From contig NZ_SNUF01000002.1 of NCBI RefSeq assembly GCF_012027305.1, forward strand, positions 310,001 to 374,000: a stretch of 64,000 bases of DNA, written 5' to 3'. The position numbers and the translations under genes are program-made. The notes below the pieces were generated by a model that was not told the DNA's origin, made no database searches, and saw nothing but the letters and a program-made list of their open reading frames with translations. This document shows, piece by piece, positions 47,895 to 60,034 of the stretch (position 1 is the first letter of the stretch; each line of letters opens with the position of its first letter). This stretch comes from Thermococcus sp. MAR1 (lineage in GTDB: Archaea; Methanobacteriota_B; Thermococci; Thermococcales; Thermococcaceae).

Positions 47895-50117
47895 TCACCC
47901 CACGACTATTACCCTCACCTTGCCGTTTTCGTTAAGGAGAATCATCGCGTTTCCCCTGATGTACCTTATGAAGCCGGTGGTGAAGACTTCCTTGGCAATT
48001 TCGGCGTTCTCCTGCTCGTAGAATACGAACAGGACGACTCCCTTGGGGGTCTTGCCAGGGATAAGAATGACCGCCTTGGCAATGGGCACCGTAACGTTTC
48101 CGACCGTGACGGTTTCGTTTGTGAGATGGAACTTCAGGTAGGGGTTGTATGGTCTCACGAAGTACTCGCCGTAGTGAGCCATGACAATGTAGCTGCCCTC
48201 GCCTATCGTGGTCGTGTTGAGGGCTATGAAGCCGCCGCTGAAGAGGTCGTTGAGCATGTCTATCGTCTCGTTTACCGTGGCGGCGTCCATATGGGGTGCG
48301 ATTATTCCGAACACATCGCTGTCGAGAGCGCTCCTTACGTCATAAAGGCTCACGGGGGGAACGTACTGGAAGCGGGAGAGGTAGTTTATGGTGCTGGCGA
48401 GCTCTATAGTCTTGTTGTCTATCGCCCCGGAGTCCCTGGCGTTCATAACGAATTCAAGTGTCTCGTTGGTGTAGTTGTATCCGTGATCCATCAGAAGGTC
48501 CGTTGCCCTGACGGTGAGTTCAACCGTCGGTGTTCCAGGGAATTCCTTGTTCTTCTCCCAGACGTAGTAGGTCTTCCAGTATGGCCAGCCTCCATTAATC
48601 CTCTGCTCAATGAGCCAGTCCATGTGGGGCTGCAGCTCTTCCTGAGAGGCTATTTCACTCAGGGCCTCAAGGACGGTTATGGTCGTTAGCACGTCTGGCT
48701 TGAGCATGTAGGAGTAGTACTTCGTCGTTACGTGGGTTCCCCATCCGCCGTTGCTTATGCTCAGAAGCCATTCCTTGGCCCTCTGAACCAGTGAGTCGTT
48801 TGCTGGAACTCCCAGTTCTCTGAGGGCTTTTATTGCAAGGGCGGTTTCGTAGGGCTGAGGACCGAGGACGGTGTTGCCCCAGAGGCCGTAGTCGAGCTGA
48901 ACACTGCGTATCAGCTCCTCCGCCTGGGCCTTTTCCTCGGCGGTCAGGTTGTTGTACATGAGGAGCGTCTTCAGTGCGTAGTAGTAGCCGACGGACATCC
49001 TGCGTTCCTGTCTCATCCAGACCGCGTCCCTCTCGAAGGCCCCTCTCGTCCACGCAAGGGCCTTTTCAATGCTCTCCTTCTCTGGATAACAGGCCTGGAT
49101 GCTCATAAGTGCGTAGTAGGTGGCCTTCTCGTCGGAGGGCTCGTTGCGTCCGAGACCCCAGCCCCCATCGGGGTTCTGGAGGTTCTTGAGTTCCTGGCAT
49201 GGCATCTCATAGGGGTTCTTTACCCCTTTCACCGGTGGGAGCTCGAATGACGTTGAGAAAGCCATGAGAGCATAGGAGGTGGTTGCCACGAGCTCCGTGG
49301 ATGAGAAGAGGTCCGGGGTGTTCATCCAGTAAACGAGATTGTTCGTGCTCTTGCTGTACGATTCCAGCTTGATGAGTATCCTCGCCGTGTCAAAGTCTAT
49401 GGGTGTGTGAAGTACGAGGGCGTACGTCAGCATGGCGCGCTCCTTCATTTTGAGGTTCCCGTCATTGAGAAGGATTTCCTTGACGCTTTCAATGGTCTCG
49501 TTGGAGACTGGATAACCTGTGCTGTGGTACGCTATGAGTTTTAGGGCGAGGGCCTCGTACTCGGGTATCTCACAGGTCGTGGTGTTCTCCACGTATTTTA
49601 TCGCTTCCCTGACGACTTTGCTGTTGTAGGTGTATCCGCTCTCTCCAAGGGCCCATATCGTCACGAGGGTTGGATAGCACGAGGTCGGGGTTCCCGGTAC
49701 GTAGCCCCATCCCCCCTCGTTCCCCGAGGAGAGGAGGTATGAAAGGCCACTGTTGATGGCGTTCCTTACACCCTCGACCCGCAGTGCCCCGACGATCGGA
49801 TCCGCCCTTTCCAGGGCGATAACGGCGTAGGCCGTGTCGAGGACGTTGCTGGTCTCACCGGGGTACAGGCCCCAGCCCCCGTCGGGGTTCTGGTACTTGA
49901 GAAGCGTCGTCACGAGGTTGTCCAGCTCTGGAGCAATGTCCCACTCCAGATCGTTGCTCGCCTCTGAGAGTGCCATTATAGCGAGGCTTATTTCCCTCGT
50001 CTGCTGGCTTGACTTGGCCGCCTCCTTGAGAAACCTTGCAGAGCCGTCTATCGTTCCGGCGCTAACGGCTGGAATCAGCATGAGAACAATCATTACTAGA
50101 GCCAGAACCTTCTTCAT
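47895..50117 (-). CDS. Secreted alpha/alpha-toroid protein with terpene-cyclase-type repeats
   Basis: A 740-residue protein with a signal peptide (KKVLALVMIVLMLIPAVSA). Repeats with the QW-type motif are visible: QNPDGGWGL at two places, GNEGGWGYV, SNGGWGTH and NGGWPYW, each after a pair of helices, as in the squalene cyclase / prenyltransferase fold. No DXDD or DXDDTA catalytic motif is evident, so a binding rather than enzymatic role is likelier, as in complement-like domains. N-glycosylation-type sites are frequent. It is the first gene of the cluster. Confidence 0.82.
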   Translation of the reverse strand: MKKVLALVMIVLMLIPAVSAGTIDGSARFLKEAAKSSQQTREISLAIMALSEASNDLEWDIAPELDNLVTTLLKYQNPDGGWGLYPGETSNVLDTAYAVIALERADPIVGALRVEGVRNAINSGLSYLLSSGNEGGWGYVPGTPTSCYPTLVTIWALGESGYTYNSKVVREAIKYVENTTTCEIPEYEALALKLIAYHSTGYPVSNETIESVKEILLNDGNLKMKERAMLTYALVLHTPIDFDTARILIKLESYSKSTNNLVYWMNTPDLFSSTELVATTSYALMAFSTSFELPPVKGVKNPYEMPCQELKNLQNPDGGWGLGRNEPSDEKATYYALMSIQACYPEKESIEKALAWTRGAFERDAVWMRQERRMSVGYYYALKTLLMYNNLTAEEKAQAEELIRSVQLDYGLWGNTVLGPQPYETALAIKALRELGVPANDSLVQRAKEWLLSISNGGWGTHVTTKYYSYMLKPDVLTTITVLEALSEIASQEELQPHMDWLIEQRINGGWPYWKTYYVWEKNKEFPGTPTVELTVRATDLLMDHGYNYTNETLEFVMNARDSGAIDNKTIELASTINYLSRFQYVPPVSLYDVRSALDSDVFGIIAPHMDAATVNETIDMLNDLFSGGFIALNTTTIGEGSYIVMAHYGEYFVRPYNPYLKFHLTNETVTVGNVTVPIAKAVILIPGKTPKGVVLFVFYEQENAEIAKEVFTTGFIRYIRGNAMILLNENGKVRVIVVG

Positions 50118-50191
50118 CACCTTACACCCCTAAGCTCATTCTAAGCGGCCAGAATAAATAAACTTTTTCCATAATAGGAAGAAGAGGGGAC

Positions 50192-54523: not shown

Positions 54524-55525
54524 TCAGTTGGCCCCGTCCCTTTCCTTTGAGGGCTTGATATACTCATAGGTAACGTCCCCCTCCACTATAGTGTAAACAT
54601 CGTTCTTGTGGTGGCGATAATGGAGTATCGGCTTGTCTAAGAGGTCAAAGGTTTTTTCAAGGTCTCTAGCCGAGGCGAGAGTAACAATATTGGTTTCGTC
54701 GGTGTCCTTGGGAACGCCCTCGACTATGAACTTTCTCAACCCTTTGAGTTCGTCTGGCGGAGTTTTCCTTCTATGCGTGTACATGAACCCGACGGGGGGC
54801 ATAACAAAACCTAACGCCATGATGGGAAAAACGGTTCTTCCAGTTGAGACCTTTACGTCTTTGCCCAGAAAGTTGATGGTGTTTATTGTAGTGTTAGTGT
54901 GTCTCTCCACCTTTTTGTACTCTTTTTCGGTATCCTGAAGCTTGAGCATCCCGGATTTATCGTTTGAGAGCGAGATTTTCTGGCTGAAGTCCTGCCTACC
55001 TTCGGTGGCTATCTCCACCTGCAAGTAAACCTCCGCTTCTGCCCGATAGAGGCCGGTTCCGTCGCGTATCCGTTTTAGGGTCTCGTCCATCTCGGTGAGG
55101 TTGAACGTTACCGGGACGGAAAAGGTTCCGGAGAATTTTCCCTCCCCAATTGGTTGGCTGAGGTTGACAATGTACACAACGTCTTTGCCGGACGTTATGT
55201 AGTATTTCTCGTTCAGGGTGAGCCTGTAGTGACCGCTCACTTCTGGTCTTGTCGAATACAGGTAGTTCCCCTTTATGTATCTCGTTATCTTCTTCGGGTA
55301 ATATTCGAGGCCCGTTCCGTTTTTGTAAACTGTTTCGTTTCCAAAGAATCCCACATGGGTAAGCTTCCCGGTCTCGACGTATTTGGTTTCGTAAGATACC
55401 CGTGTTGTAGTCTGTTCCCTTGTGTATGCCAATCCCGAATAAACAGTAAACGTCACGGCCAGCATAAGTGAGACCGCAAGCGTAACCCTGAGGATGTTTC
55501 TCTTATCGTCTTTACCAATCTTCAA
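54524..55525 (-). CDS. DUF5305-like membrane protein, last gene of the TasA-like cluster
   Basis: A 333-residue protein: an N-terminal transmembrane helix (TLAVSLMLAVTFTVYSGLAY), an extracellular beta-rich domain of about 200 residues with IGEGKFSGTFSVPVTFN, a second hydrophobic segment (VFPIMALGFVMPPVGFMY) and a cytosolic part of about 80 residues. This fits DUF5305, often found beside Ser/His signal peptidases. The start is probably TTG 55525, seven bases after GGAGGG, rather than TTG 55540, which overlaps that site. Confidence 0.75.
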   Translation of the reverse strand: MKIGKDDKRNILRVTLAVSLMLAVTFTVYSGLAYTREQTTTRVSYETKYVETGKLTHVGFFGNETVYKNGTGLEYYPKKITRYIKGNYLYSTRPEVSGHYRLTLNEKYYITSGKDVVYIVNLSQPIGEGKFSGTFSVPVTFNLTEMDETLKRIRDGTGLYRAEAEVYLQVEIATEGRQDFSQKISLSNDKSGMLKLQDTEKEYKKVERHTNTTINTINFLGKDVKVSTGRTVFPIMALGFVMPPVGFMYTHRRKTPPDELKGLRKFIVEGVPKDTDETNIVTLASARDLEKTFDLLDKPILHYRHHKNDVYTIVEGDVTYEYIKPSKERDGAN

Positions 55526-55543
55526 ATCAATTCCCTCCAAAAA

Positions 55544-56887
55544 TCATCTCCCTTCGCAGGTAGAAGGGCTTTTTCCGTCATCTAACGATTCGTCCAGGAA
55601 CTCGTTGTCATTCTCGGCTTGACATCCACACTTGTAAACGTGAACGTAGGTGGAACATCCGGAGCAGCCGCATCCCGCTATGCAGGGTCTGCTAACCAGG
55701 AGAACATTTTTCGAGTGTCCGCTTATGCTTATCCCGTCGGTGTGTTCGTAGAGGTCCAGCGTTGCAGTCCCACCGTGCTCCAGGTGGAGTGTCCACTTTA
55801 CTTCGGTTTTTCCGTTCGGCACGTTCGTCAGTAAGATGGCTCCTTTATTGGTGGAATAACTCTCAACCGTGAAATGTTTCCCGACGTACTGGGTTACGGT
55901 TAGGTCTTTTTCTGCCCCCATATTCTTCACGAATATCCTAGTGTGGTAGTCCGCGGGAGTGCCATCCCTGAGGTGCCTTGGTCCGCTTATCCGGATGCTT
56001 TTCACACAAAGGTAGCAGTCGTTGCCGCCGTCGCATATGGCGGTGACGTTTATCCCATCGCTTCTGATTTCGTACCCTTCTATTTCTGCCCCTTCATTCA
56101 AGGGATATTCGCCGCAGGACGTGAACTCCTGCTTTCCAGCCGGGTTAAGCTTTGTGTGTATGGTCACGTCCAGATGGGCGCTTCCATCCGCGGGCACTTC
56201 CACATTCCACGTGATGTGATGTGCCGCTCCCGTTTGAACTACGGAGTAGGTTCCTGCGCTAGGTACTATTGAGTCTATGTCGAACTCTCCGGGTACTACA
56301 TCCTTTATCGTTAGGTTTCTCGCAAGCTCTGGACTGGTGACGCTGATCCTGAATGTCCACTGCTGATAAGTGTGGGCAGGCACTTCAAGCTCTCCTGTAA
56401 GTAGATCCTTTCGGATAGTTGGTCCTCCGTTGAAAGTTACCCATATTGAACATGCATCTATTCTTGCATTCCCTCCGTCCCAGTCAGCGTATATTGTGAT
56501 TGGCACCTCGTAGGGGCCCTCGCTGATGGAGGAGGTGCTTTCTATCTCGCCCTCGAACTGGATTGCCTCCCCAGGGTTGATTGTTTTTATAGTGCCCTCA
56601 ACGCTTCCCGTTGCATCAGGTGGTAGGTTGGAGAAATCACCGGCTATATGAACCGATAGTGGAACATCCATCCTGTTCTCCACGGTGATCGCCACAAATT
56701 CTACTCCCTCATCAACTTCGACAACCAGGGGATTTTCTATACACCTGTATGCTATGGATGAGTTTTCTCCGCTCACAACGCTTACCCATGCCGTCCTGTT
56801 TGAGGTATAACCCCTAAAGTTTCCGCTTGAGCCGGCTATGAGTATCATTCCGATGATAAAGGCGGCCACCAAAAAGAGGGTTCTCAT
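55544..56887 (-). CDS. Secreted surface protein with TasA-like mature start and cysteine-rich tail
   Basis: A 447-residue protein. After the hydrophobic signal comes SSGNFRGYTSNRTAWVSVV, the same mature-start pattern as in the two small DUF1102-type proteins. Two or three immunoglobulin-like repeats follow (for example AHTYQQWTFRISV and GGTATLDLYEH, resembling DUF11). The C-terminal 50 residues hold seven cysteines (CIAGCGCSGC and KCGC). ATGA overlap with the signal peptidase gene before it. Confidence 0.75.
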   Translation of the reverse strand: MRTLFLVAAFIIGMILIAGSSGNFRGYTSNRTAWVSVVSGENSSIAYRCIENPLVVEVDEGVEFVAITVENRMDVPLSVHIAGDFSNLPPDATGSVEGTIKTINPGEAIQFEGEIESTSSISEGPYEVPITIYADWDGGNARIDACSIWVTFNGGPTIRKDLLTGELEVPAHTYQQWTFRISVTSPELARNLTIKDVVPGEFDIDSIVPSAGTYSVVQTGAAHHITWNVEVPADGSAHLDVTIHTKLNPAGKQEFTSCGEYPLNEGAEIEGYEIRSDGINVTAICDGGNDCYLCVKSIRISGPRHLRDGTPADYHTRIFVKNMGAEKDLTVTQYVGKHFTVESYSTNKGAILLTNVPNGKTEVKWTLHLEHGGTATLDLYEHTDGISISGHSKNVLLVSRPCIAGCGCSGCSTYVHVYKCGCQAENDNEFLDESLDDGKSPSTCEGR

Positions 56888-57963
56888 TGTTTACCATCCC
56901 CAAATATTTTTCCTAGAACGCTTCTTCTCCTGATTTTAATTCTCAACAACTCGTCCTTTCCTATTCCAGCCAGTATGTAAAAAGTCATCATAATCGCGAC
57001 CAGCTCAGATGAGTAAAGGATTAGTGGAATGTAAGGGCTTGCACTATATGCCTTTTCAACCGCTCCAAACGGCAGGATCGCTGGGTATGACCTGACTTCA
57101 ACCTCTTCGCGGTACACTCGAGTGTCCTGTGGAACGGAAATCTTGAGGAGTACCTCGTGACTCATACCCCCTGTTACTCTAAAGGTATCATCCCCCAGCA
57201 AGGTTACCCTTTCTCTCCTTGGTTCAATGAAATAATAGAATGGGTAAACGGCGTGGTTTTCTATCGTGATGTTCCTCTCAAAGCTTGTCCCTGGAAGGTA
57301 CCAACCCTCCCTCTGTCCACCGGCCAGGGTTGAGGAGTAGGTGAAAGCTATAGTGCCCCAGGAGGAGATAGTGACGAAAACGAATCCTGCTATTATGGCT
57401 ACTGAAATCACGGCATAGACGGTTTTCAGGGATAGCTTAACGAACCTCCTTGAGCTCTTCTTTCGATGCCTCTCTTTTCTGTTCGAGCCTGAAAACGTTA
57501 GAACGGCACCCATCACTACCAAGATGCCAACGACGTACAAGTTTGTCGCCTTTGAGCGTATGTTCTCTATCAGCTCTCCCCCCTTCCGAACGACTAAGGG
57601 TCTGCCAAAGAGGACGATTACCTTCCCGGCCATATCCGACTTTTTAACTGTAGGGTACAATCCCTCCTGCTGATCCGTTGCAACGTTATTGTCCCCCTTT
57701 GTGATGTATCCATCGCTGGTAATTGCGTATACCCTGTGGACTGTCCACCCGTCTCGTCTCTGAAAGACAATGATGTCCCCTACTTCCGCCCTTCTTGAGA
57801 GGGGGTTGATGAAAAACAGGTCACCCACGTTTATTGTGGGGGTCATGCTTTCGGAGGAAGCGTAAGAAACTAAAACAGGCCTGTCAAGGATAAACCCGAC
57901 TATCGATGTTATCATAAATATCAATACAATAACTATGGCCAGGTTCTCCATCACTTTTCTCAT
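56884..57963 (-). CDS. Signal peptidase I (Ser/His, SipW-like) with extra outer domain
   Basis: A 359-residue protein. The first 130 residues are a signal peptidase: nucleophile Ser39 in ESMTPT, His76 in TVHRVYA instead of the bacterial lysine, and KGDNN, as in archaeal, ER and SipW enzymes. About 230 further residues add a membrane segment, a second one (VISVAIIAGFVFVTI), a beta-rich outer domain and a final helix (YSSELVAIMMTFYILAGIG). This extension is unusual. The gene sits among its likely substrates, so it may be dedicated to them. Confidence 0.88.
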   Translation of the reverse strand: MRKVMENLAIVIVLIFMITSIVGFILDRPVLVSYASSESMTPTINVGDLFFINPLSRRAEVGDIIVFQRRDGWTVHRVYAITSDGYITKGDNNVATDQQEGLYPTVKKSDMAGKVIVLFGRPLVVRKGGELIENIRSKATNLYVVGILVVMGAVLTFSGSNRKERHRKKSSRRFVKLSLKTVYAVISVAIIAGFVFVTISSWGTIAFTYSSTLAGGQREGWYLPGTSFERNITIENHAVYPFYYFIEPRRERVTLLGDDTFRVTGGMSHEVLLKISVPQDTRVYREEVEVRSYPAILPFGAVEKAYSASPYIPLILYSSELVAIMMTFYILAGIGKDELLRIKIRRRSVLGKIFGDGKQ

Positions 57964-58008
57964 TGGCTTTCCCTCTCAAAGATTGGGGGCAAAGGCCCCG
58001 AAAGAAAA

Positions 58009-58542
58009 TCACGGGCAGGCTCCGGCGTAGGCCTCGATGCTCATCTGGAACTGGTAGCTTCCCAGGGTTGAGTTTGTGTTGTCGAATATCATGCCTATCG
58101 GAACAGGGTCTCCGTGCTCGACGGTGAACTCTATGTTGTTGTCCGGTCCGGCTATGGGGTTGGTGTAGTTGCCCGCGAAGATCAGTACATCGTCATGCTG
58201 GGTCTTTATGGTGACGCATATCGGGTAGTTAGTCTCGTTGTTTTCCCAGAGCTCGTTGCTTACTTGGAACATCTCCTCAAAGACGTAGGTCGTGTTCGGG
58301 CTCATTCCCATACCAGCACCTTGTGGATAGTTCGGGTTGTAGCTGCTTATATCCACGTAGAGCTTTCCGGCATCGTAGGTCACGTAGGGCTGAAGGGCGG
58401 TTAGGTCGATGAGCTCGTTGTCATCGGAAACTACATCGAAGGAGGCCGTCCTATCGGCGGCATAATATCTGAAGTTAGCTCCAGCGCCCACCGCTAGGAG
58501 CATTCCTATCATCAGCAAAGTTAGTCCAAACAGTTTGTTCAT
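58009..58542 (-). CDS. DUF1102-type secreted protein, TasA/camelysin-like (177 residues)
   Basis: A signal helix (LFGLTLLMIGMLLAVGAG) then GANFRYYAADRTASFDVVSD, followed by a beta-rich domain of about 145 residues ending EAYAGACP. The sequence DDNELIDLTALQPYV is shared with the next gene. The pattern matches TasA/camelysin-type fibre proteins, whose signal is cut by SipW-like peptidases. It lies 14 bases from the stop of its paralog and upstream of the signal peptidase gene. Confidence 0.82.
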   Translation of the reverse strand: MNKLFGLTLLMIGMLLAVGAGANFRYYAADRTASFDVVSDDNELIDLTALQPYVTYDAGKLYVDISSYNPNYPQGAGMGMSPNTTYVFEEMFQVSNELWENNETNYPICVTIKTQHDDVLIFAGNYTNPIAGPDNNIEFTVEHGDPVPIGMIFDNTNSTLGSYQFQMSIEAYAGACP

Positions 58543-58556
58543 TCTTTACGCCCCCT

Positions 58557-59153
58557 TCACTGTCCGCATTTGCCAACTAAGTCAGCTGGCTCGGTTCCAA
58601 GCCTGTATGCTTCGATGTGCATTGTGGTGCTCTGGGTTGTACCTGGGGCTTCGTTACCAACGTCGAAGTCCATTCCCACCTTAACAGCGTCGCCGTTATC
58701 TACAACGAAGCACACGTCGTCCTTCGCCATGTCGCTGGCGTAAACCACTGCTCCGGTCAGACTGTCATGAACGTCAAAGTCTGCGCCGTAGAACTGGATT
58801 GCGCTGTTGCCGTCGTTTGTTATCCTTACAACTATGCTCATGTTGTCCTCCCAGAGGTCGTTGCTTACCTCAAACACTTCATCGAAGTTGTACTCCGAGT
58901 TCGGGCTTAGGCCGTTTCCGTAGCCGGGGTAGTTCGGGTTGTCTGGGCTGATGTCAACCACCAAAACACCGCCGTCGTTTATGTACGCGTAGGGCTGTAT
59001 TGGGGTTAGGTCGATGAGCTCGTTGTCATCGGTCACTATGTCCCAATGCACACTCCTGTCAGCGTTGTAGTCCCTGAAGTTTGCTCCAGCCCCCAAAACG
59101 AGGCCAAAGGCCACCAACAGGCCAAAAATTCCTAGGGCAATATTTTTTCTCAA
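58557..59153 (-). CDS. DUF1102-type secreted protein, TasA/camelysin-like (198 residues)
   Basis: A paralog of the next gene: signal helix, GAGANFRDYNADRSVHWDIV, then DDNELIDLTPIQPYAYI, a YxxSPxNPNYP-type stretch (PDNPNYPGYGNGLSPN), and ending DLVGKCGQ. The start codon is TTG at 59153, seven bases after AGGAGGC. First gene of the secreted cluster; its 225-base upstream gap carries palindromes. Likely an abundant extracellular filament subunit (inference). Confidence 0.83.
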   Translation of the reverse strand: MRKNIALGIFGLLVAFGLVLGAGANFRDYNADRSVHWDIVTDDNELIDLTPIQPYAYINDGGVLVVDISPDNPNYPGYGNGLSPNSEYNFDEVFEVSNDLWEDNMSIVVRITNDGNSAIQFYGADFDVHDSLTGAVVYASDMAKDDVCFVVDNGDAVKVGMDFDVGNEAPGTTQSTTMHIEAYRLGTEPADLVGKCGQ

Positions 59154-59227
59154 TTTTTTCGCCTCCTAATTTGGAGGCACTGTGGTAAGAAGTCAGGATA
59201 AGAGAACCAGAGTTCAGATATCCCTCG

Positions 59228-59341
59228 CGTTGTTACGTCAACGCAGCGCCCCGTAAGGCAACCTTTTGGCTGCCAGTTATCATGTCAACCTACCGAGTAT
59301 ATAGACAATTCCAGCTTACTCATCGGTAACGCAAGGTTACC
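59228..59341 (-). promoter_or_regulatory. Promoter region of the TasA-like cluster with palindromes
   Basis: The gap holds GGTAAC-5-GTTACC (59325-59341), CGTTG-6-CAACG (59228-59243) and an interrupted GGCA...TGCC repeat near 59257-59274. A TATA-like CTATATACT on the minus strand lies at about 59296-59304, between the first two. The winged-helix proteins encoded just upstream are natural candidates to bind these sites. The leader to the TTG at 59153 would exceed 100 bases. Confidence 0.45.
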
Positions 59342-59379
59342 TGCCAAAACTGATGGGTGTTTGGTTTAAGATTCCTTAC

Positions 59380-59814
59380 TCAAAACAGTCTTTTTACCCG
59401 TTTGTGGTGTACCAGACTTATGGCCAGATACACCAGGGCGGCCAGCAACAGAGGCATACTGCCTAGGTACCAGCCAGCGATGATGAAGATTATTGAGGTC
59501 CCCATGTAGAAGGCGCTCCAGCTTATGTCGTGCCTGCTGACGACCTCCATGTAGACGGTCACATCGTCCGGAATCTTCAGGAGCGTGACGACGCCGTGGC
59601 TGAAAGTTATCACTCCCTCCCTCTCCAGCTTGGGGATGTGCGTCTGGACTAGGCTGACGTAGACGCTCTTCCTGTGTTTTCTGTCAGTTGAGCCTTCCTT
59701 TTCTGCTATGTATTCAACCAGTTCTCTAAGCTCGGCGTGGCCCTCCCTCTGCTGGAGAAACTCTATCATGAGCATTCTCCTGTCGTTGCCGAGTATTGCC
59801 GTCGTTGCCCCCAT
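59380..59814 (-). CDS. Winged-helix regulator with C-terminal membrane helices
   Basis: A 144-residue protein. A winged-helix DNA-binding domain (ILGNDRRMLMIEFL, then VYVSLVQTHIPKLEREGVI as the recognition region) is followed by two hydrophobic segments (WSAFYMGTSIIFIIAGWYL and LLLAALVYLAISLVHH). Membrane-tied regulators of this build occur near surface genes in archaea. The start is ATG 59814 or 59817, just after GGTGAT. It follows the smaller regulator by four bases. Confidence 0.8.
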   Translation of the reverse strand: MGATTAILGNDRRMLMIEFLQQREGHAELRELVEYIAEKEGSTDRKHRKSVYVSLVQTHIPKLEREGVITFSHGVVTLLKIPDDVTVYMEVVSRHDISWSAFYMGTSIIFIIAGWYLGSMPLLLAALVYLAISLVHHKRVKRLF

Positions 59815-59818
59815 CATA

Positions 59819-60034
59819 TCACCGCAACCTGTAATGTTTTCTCTTATTCCCGTTGGTGTAGAACGCCTCCACCCTTTTCTGCTCCACGAGTTTTCTGAGG
59901 GTTCTCTCAACTTTCTGCCTCGTGCAGAAAACACCCCTCTCATTAAGGAACCGCGTCAGAAAAGCGACACTGAGTGATCCGTGTATCTTGAGGAGGTTCA
60001 TAATCTCAACCTCCAGGTTAACTACGTTGCTCAC
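59819..60034 (-). CDS. Small winged-helix regulator
   Basis: A 71-residue protein, IMNLLKIHGSLSVAFLTRFL then RQKVERTLRKLVEQKRVEAF, ending with a basic GNKRKHYRLR wing: a single winged helix-turn-helix. It starts at GTG 60034 after GGAGGGGGTGAGG. A TATA-like CTTAAATAGT lies at 60095-60104. It is the first gene of the two-regulator pair upstream of the TasA-like cluster. Confidence 0.82.
   Translation of the reverse strand: MSNVVNLEVEIMNLLKIHGSLSVAFLTRFLNERGVFCTRQKVERTLRKLVEQKRVEAFYTNGNKRKHYRLR

Follow-up and report, generated by a model that had tools for sequence, protein, structure and literature searches.

A probable donor-strand fimbria locus in Thermococcus with its own Ser/His signal peptidase

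A seven-gene cassette of Thermococcus very probably encodes a donor-strand-assembled surface fimbria, which would represent a Thermococcales/Archaeoglobi branch of the AbpA/Tafi fimbriae. This assignment is based on homology and genomics. The cassette lies on the minus strand, at positions 60034 to 54524 of the 64,000-nucleotide stretch of Thermococcus sp. MAR1 DNA that we analysed, hereafter the window. A first-pass annotation of the same DNA had proposed a complete, regulated TasA/SipW-like fibre unit. To that proposal we add a predicted Phe residue at P2' of the subunits, a beta-sandwich in the peptidase, two fibre types with a mosaic cassette in the window, a putative dyad operator and a candidate leader RNA. 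We tentatively extend the interpretation to propose that Thermococcus swaps its fibre type as a co-adapted cassette while keeping the resident regulators and outer domains, and that an undescribed archaeal leader RNA with competing helices controls the major subunit.

In the proposed mechanism, the subunits A1 and A2 would be exported with a signal helix and cut before xF at a conserved start by the dedicated Ser/His peptidase. The freed N-terminal segment, NFRxYxxDRxxxxxIV, flexible in the monomer, would build the fibre by inserting into the beta-sandwich of the next subunit. The larger protein BIG would enter the same fibre via its homologous N-terminal domain and display exchangeable DUF11 domains, whether as a tip, an adhesin or an initiator. 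The peptidase and the DUF5305 protein may use their membrane beta-domains to hold subunits or pass them on during assembly. The winged-helix pair would act at a GGTAAY-N5-RTTACC operator beside a TATA-like box, and a structured leader could hide the Shine-Dalgarno (SD) sequence of A1. Adhesion or aggregation are the presumed uses. The cassette provides a concrete fimbria locus for hyperthermophile model organisms, in a genetically tractable genus in which donor-strand assembly is testable, and likely roles can be assigned to DUF1102, DUF5305, DUF7344 and an unusual, extended signal peptidase.

Gene content, mature starts and signal peptidase

The genes are ordered as follows: a small winged-helix protein (wHTH), a DUF7344 winged-helix protein, a gap of 226 bp, A1, A2, the peptidase, BIG and DUF5305. 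On one side they are flanked by the genes of inorganic pyrophosphatase (PPase) and RpoE, as in many Thermococcus genomes, and on the other by a glycosyltransferase gene. Elsewhere in the window (47895-50120, minus strand) is encoded a 741-residue secreted protein, the repeats of which look by eye like an alpha-toroid of the prenyltransferase/cyclase type. Chance can be excluded for the cassette, because its order is conserved in 20 sampled Thermococcaceae loci and DUF1102 is found in 87 of the 94 genomes of the family (72 of the 74 of good quality). The few exceptions to the order are two loci with no detected first wHTH (L036 and L037), the latter also with no detected BIG.

The first gene (59819-60034) is an ORF for a 71-residue putative regulator and is kept upstream in most sampled loci. 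The second (59380-59817), which probably starts at 59817 rather than 59943, codes for a protein of ~145 residues with C-terminal hydrophobic segments that matches DUF7344 (PF24035, E 2e-18). These two genes correspond to the winged-helix genes, one membrane-tied, already placed directly upstream by the first-pass annotation. A1 (58557-59153, TTG start) and A2 (58009-58542), putative fibre subunits, are indeed small secreted paralogues, with 49% identity (E 5e-36), and both are DUF1102 proteins (Pfam E-values of 6e-56 and 3e-56, respectively). BIG (55544-56887) is composed of an N-terminal pilin-like domain followed by DUF11-type domains and is a putative minor or tip subunit; HHalign aligns its first domain to the profile of A1 with a probability of 92 (E 7.7e-7). 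The last gene (54524-55540) codes for a membrane-anchored protein, correctly taken earlier for a DUF5305-type protein (Pfam, 31.2 bits for a cut-off of 29), that is co-inherited with the peptidase and the subunits.

Directly after the signal helix, the predicted mature proteins start with NFRDYNADR in A1, NFRYYAADR in A2 and NFRGYTSNR in BIG. This shared start, previously noticed in all three proteins including the larger one, is real: across 20 genomes, all 40 A1/A2 proteins and 17 of 19 BIG proteins have the Phe and Arg residues of the.F..[YF]...R pattern. Within the window, A1, A2 and BIG are the sole ORFs that match a regular expression of the motif with its small-residue context. In each of them A-x-A or S-x-G precedes xF; the predicted cut falls between the two and would therefore place Phe at P2'. 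TasA is cut by SipW, a Ser-His enzyme of the ER type, and its Phe residue at P2' is one reason why LepB cleaves it poorly (PMC10269814). About half of the relatives have a third DUF1102 paralogue, devoid of the mature-start motif and of the donor segment, which could take up a strand without donating one and might form a base. As it is missing in this genome, the description of the unit as complete is doubtful.

The peptidase (56884-57963) is an archaeal signal peptidase (TIGR02228, 65.3 bits for a cut-off of 51.85). Ser39, His76, Asp91 and Asp97 are invariant in 28 relatives, with a Ser-His pair in place of Ser-Lys as in SipW and ER-type enzymes. Its best relatives in the PDB are SEC11 proteins, and the signal-peptidase part of its model matches SEC11 and SipA. 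Its earlier assignment to the SipW class is thus borne out by the catalytic pair but not by the SipW equivalog NF046067, for which it scores 30.9 bits against 190. Since the genome encodes two further archaeal signal peptidases, the cassette enzyme counts as an extra one. Its model comprises the catalytic domain, two membrane helices, a confidently predicted beta-sandwich (residues 203-294) and a third membrane helix. This C-terminal extension is kept across Thermococci, Archaeoglobi and haloarchaea. With Z values of up to 7.9, the sandwich is similar to MSP/PapD-like domains, a common arrangement, and that it holds subunits is a guess.

Predicted operator and candidate leader RNA

The regulation of the locus that was proposed earlier agrees with the position of the putative regulator genes next to those of the subunits and with a conserved, predicted operator-promoter beside them. 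On the minus strand, the dyad GGTAAC-CTTGC-GTTACC (59325-59341) is followed ~20 nt downstream by the TATA-like box CTATATA (59298-59304). In 36 of 39 loci, a strict or relaxed version of GGTAAY-N5-RTTACC is found just upstream of such a box, and the exact dyad of the window is found once in the 2.02 Mb genome. It is likely the operator of the winged-helix pair. We also considered the dyad as the signal of a regulon. Genome-wide, matches with one mismatch are about as numerous as those of a reversed-pattern control, and therefore no regulon is claimed.

A candidate structured leader RNA (59154-59278, minus strand) precedes A1. It is predicted to contain a 5' hairpin (59275-59258), a long-range helix that pairs 59252-59244 with 59182-59174, and an SD hairpin (59178-59161) that overlaps the latter. 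We compared the 112-166 nt before A1 in 21 loci of type I, one of the two fibre types described below. The 5' hairpin and the long-range helix show two-sided changes in five pairs, with 97% of the cells paired, and their covariation is above that of all 500 shuffles and far above that of slid versions. The SD hairpin, GCCUCC/GGAGGC, is nearly invariant and has no covariation support of its own; by predicted pairing, it hides the SD sequence in all 21 loci. As the SD hairpin and the long-range helix use the same GCCUC, they are mutually exclusive. The leader of the window folds better than its shuffled versions (z -3.28) and matches no Rfam family. A model of the leader has one strong place in the genome and also finds a locus that was not used to build it (L066, E 9e-16). 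A role as an RNA thermometer was considered as well and is a guess: the predicted SD pairing drops with temperature in most, not all, sequences, and the energies at 85 C are extrapolated.

Fibre types, transfer and loss

Twenty-eight Thermococcus loci found at one chromosomal site fall into two types based on A1 identity (~84% within and 49% between types). A2, the peptidase, DUF5305 and the first domain of BIG follow the type together with A1 (label-shuffle p 0.0005, a value that ignores genealogy and for which the flanking genes, with no difference between types, serve as the control). RpoE, PPase and the second domain of BIG do not follow it. The identities of DUF5305 and of the peptidase are correlated (0.96).

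Compared with L046, L048, L132 and L134, the cassette of the window (54524-60034) is a mosaic, with a type I fibre core in type II-like surroundings. Its A1 is of type I, with 84-89% identity to those of L034, L035 and L053 and 49-50% to those of the type II loci L046 and L048. Its regulators are type II-like, with a wHTH 92-93% identical to those of L046 and L048 and an identity of 86-88% for DUF7344, and so is its glycosyltransferase flank (92-94%). The promoter resembles those of type II, as the regulators do, while the leader resembles those of type I. In BIG, domain 2 is 81% identical to that of L046, and domain 1 is 67% identical to that of the type I locus L132 and 37% to that of L046. 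The simplest reading of these identities is that the fibre core was swapped by recombination and that one of the boundaries lies within BIG. Such a boundary would be in line with a BIG protein whose docking domain is matched to the fibre and whose outer part can be exchanged.

The unit had first been placed in Thermococcales but is not exclusive to them, as Archaeoglobus and Geoglobus loci keep the same cassette order. Neither Thermococci nor Archaeoglobi are recovered as a single group in the tree of the peptidase; given the starred branches, each requires two or more changes of label, and transfer between these lineages is therefore likely. The cassette recurs partly rearranged in haloarchaea, where the locus L093 harbours DUF7344, a BIG-like protein, DUF1102-type subunits, the extended peptidase and DUF5305. 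This locus and two other haloarchaeal ones (L112 and L113) encode several DUF1102-like subunits in a row, with signal peptides of the twin-arginine type, as well as a larger paralogue whose hydrophobic C-terminus resembles an anchor of the PGF type.

Losses were found within the family. The whole cassette has decayed by stops and deletions in one genome (G029, locus L126), next to intact PPase and RpoE genes. In two others, G026 and G040, searches for DUF1102 and the extended peptidase found neither, and general peptidases only. In G080, the DUF1102 subunits are missing between regulator and peptidase (L125, between 8000 and 8113). That genome keeps the regulators, peptidase, BIG and DUF5305 as open frames, with one weak DUF1102 match elsewhere, and these genes may do something without A1 and A2. 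The cassette is therefore dispensable, being decayed, absent or subunit-free in these genomes.

These patterns bear on the use of the fimbria. Rather than as a biofilm matrix, it might serve mainly for adhesion, contact between cells or some other task at the surface, and pressure from viruses or grazers would maintain the two exchangeable types. This would be a variant of our main reading, different in use only, and we consider it a serious contender of slightly less than even probability. Swapping of two types at one site with the same flanks, separate exchange of the outer domain of BIG and dispensability of the cassette all agree with it; exposed adhesins or receptors commonly show such patterns. 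The ties of AbpA and TasA to bundles and biofilm argue in the other direction. Together with the candidate RNA switch, the swapping of fibre types suggests that the fibres are under strong selection and tightly controlled.

Subunit fold and comparison with known systems

The AlphaFold model of mature A1 has a pLDDT of 85.8, with residues 1-14 under 50. Its best Foldseek match is 7ueg, the AbpA pili (E 8e-5, prob 1.00), which is also the sole PDB match under E 0.001. 7ueg gives the highest Z as well (8.7 over 120 residues), and the predicted fold of A1 is thus that of the AbpA subunit. The donor-strand pilins FimA and FimG are weaker matches, behind 7ueg. The Tafi pilus 9p0a has a Z of 7.5, no higher than those of MSP domains, a common arrangement, and the relation to Tafi is therefore argued from sequence.

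No pilin was found when the PDB was searched by sequence, either with A1 by itself or with a profile of the mature part only. A subunit of the haloarchaeal locus L093 matches DUF1102 (E 1e-9), TafE (1e-25) and TafA (7e-9), and its sister subunit matches the Tafi pilin 9p0a (E 4e-14), which starts with the same GA|F..V.ADR pattern. With a length of 188 and a last aligned residue at 215, the chain in the Tafi structure appears to start at residue 28, which is the F of GA|FSSVEADR. A precursor profile reaches 9p0a at E 4e-11 with the haloarchaeal L093 rows but only at 0.71 without haloarchaea, and we thus regard the sequence link as indirect. Another haloarchaeal locus (L111), above the cut-offs for both TafA and TafE, also harbours a DUF7344 regulator and an extended peptidase. 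The window proteins score below those NCBIfam cut-offs (27 bits versus 190 for TafA, 20.9 versus 155 for TafE), and the TafA model has no match in 61 Thermococcaceae genomes. A literature search on DUF1102 and Tafi/TafA found no papers.

The subunits might instead remain single surface or S-layer-associated proteins, with the peptidase merely a specialized secretion enzyme and no fibre. The fold of A1 is also like common MSP/PapD-like sandwiches (Z 7.7), and there is a weak match to an S-layer model (NF033506, E 0.012). Nevertheless, the best fold match is a solved pilus, the relatives are solved or named fimbrial proteins, and the N-terminal segment, the most regular shared feature, is disordered in the monomer model, all of which makes this alternative improbable. 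A tube or sheath nearer to archaeal cannulae than to thin fimbriae is more improbable still, as 7ueg scores much better than the third Foldseek match, the Hyper2 tube 9bab (E 4.9e-3, Z 5.7), and the gene content, including the regulator and the extended peptidase, fits Taf fimbrial loci.

Thus, of the TasA/SipW-like locus first proposed, secreted subunits with the AbpA fold and a dedicated Ser/His peptidase stand, but membership of the TasA family proper does not. TasA is absent among the Foldseek matches listed for A1, and the TasA/camelysin family and SipW-cognate signal-peptide models of Pfam and NCBIfam gave no match at E<=1 for A1, A2 or BIG. The Bacillus subtilis TasA/SipW/TapA system likewise has a dedicated Ser/His peptidase, a substrate with Phe at P2', and a fibre protein with a minor partner of similar N-terminus, as proposed here for A1/A2 and BIG (PMC10269814, PMC9674648). 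In contrast, the Thermococcus peptidase has a large extra membrane domain, and DUF5305, DUF7344 and the leader RNA belong to an archaeal setting.

Among archaeal systems, the threads of Sulfolobus acidocaldarius are a donor-strand fibre (PMC9715654), but with a different subunit and locus, and they are absent among the fold matches listed. The AbpA bundling pili of Pyrobaculum calidifontis (7ueg) provide the best fold match to A1, at 11-12% sequence identity, and judging from the aligned range they leave the first residues of the chain free, like the A1 model. The Tafi pilus of Natrinema sp. J7-2 (9p0a; NCBIfam TafA/TafE/TafC/TafF) has subunits homologous to A1 and A2 via L093, with the same GA|[N]F....A[DE]R start. 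Taf loci also harbour a DUF7344 regulator, an extended Ser/His peptidase and, in some cases, DUF5305. The Thermococcus subunits differ in being DUF1102 proteins far below the Taf cut-offs, with signal peptides devoid of twin arginines, and the gene order and number of subunits differ as well. With subunits, extended peptidase, DUF5305 and DUF7344 regulator in common, the haloarchaeal Tafi/Taf locus is nevertheless a better comparison than TasA/SipW.
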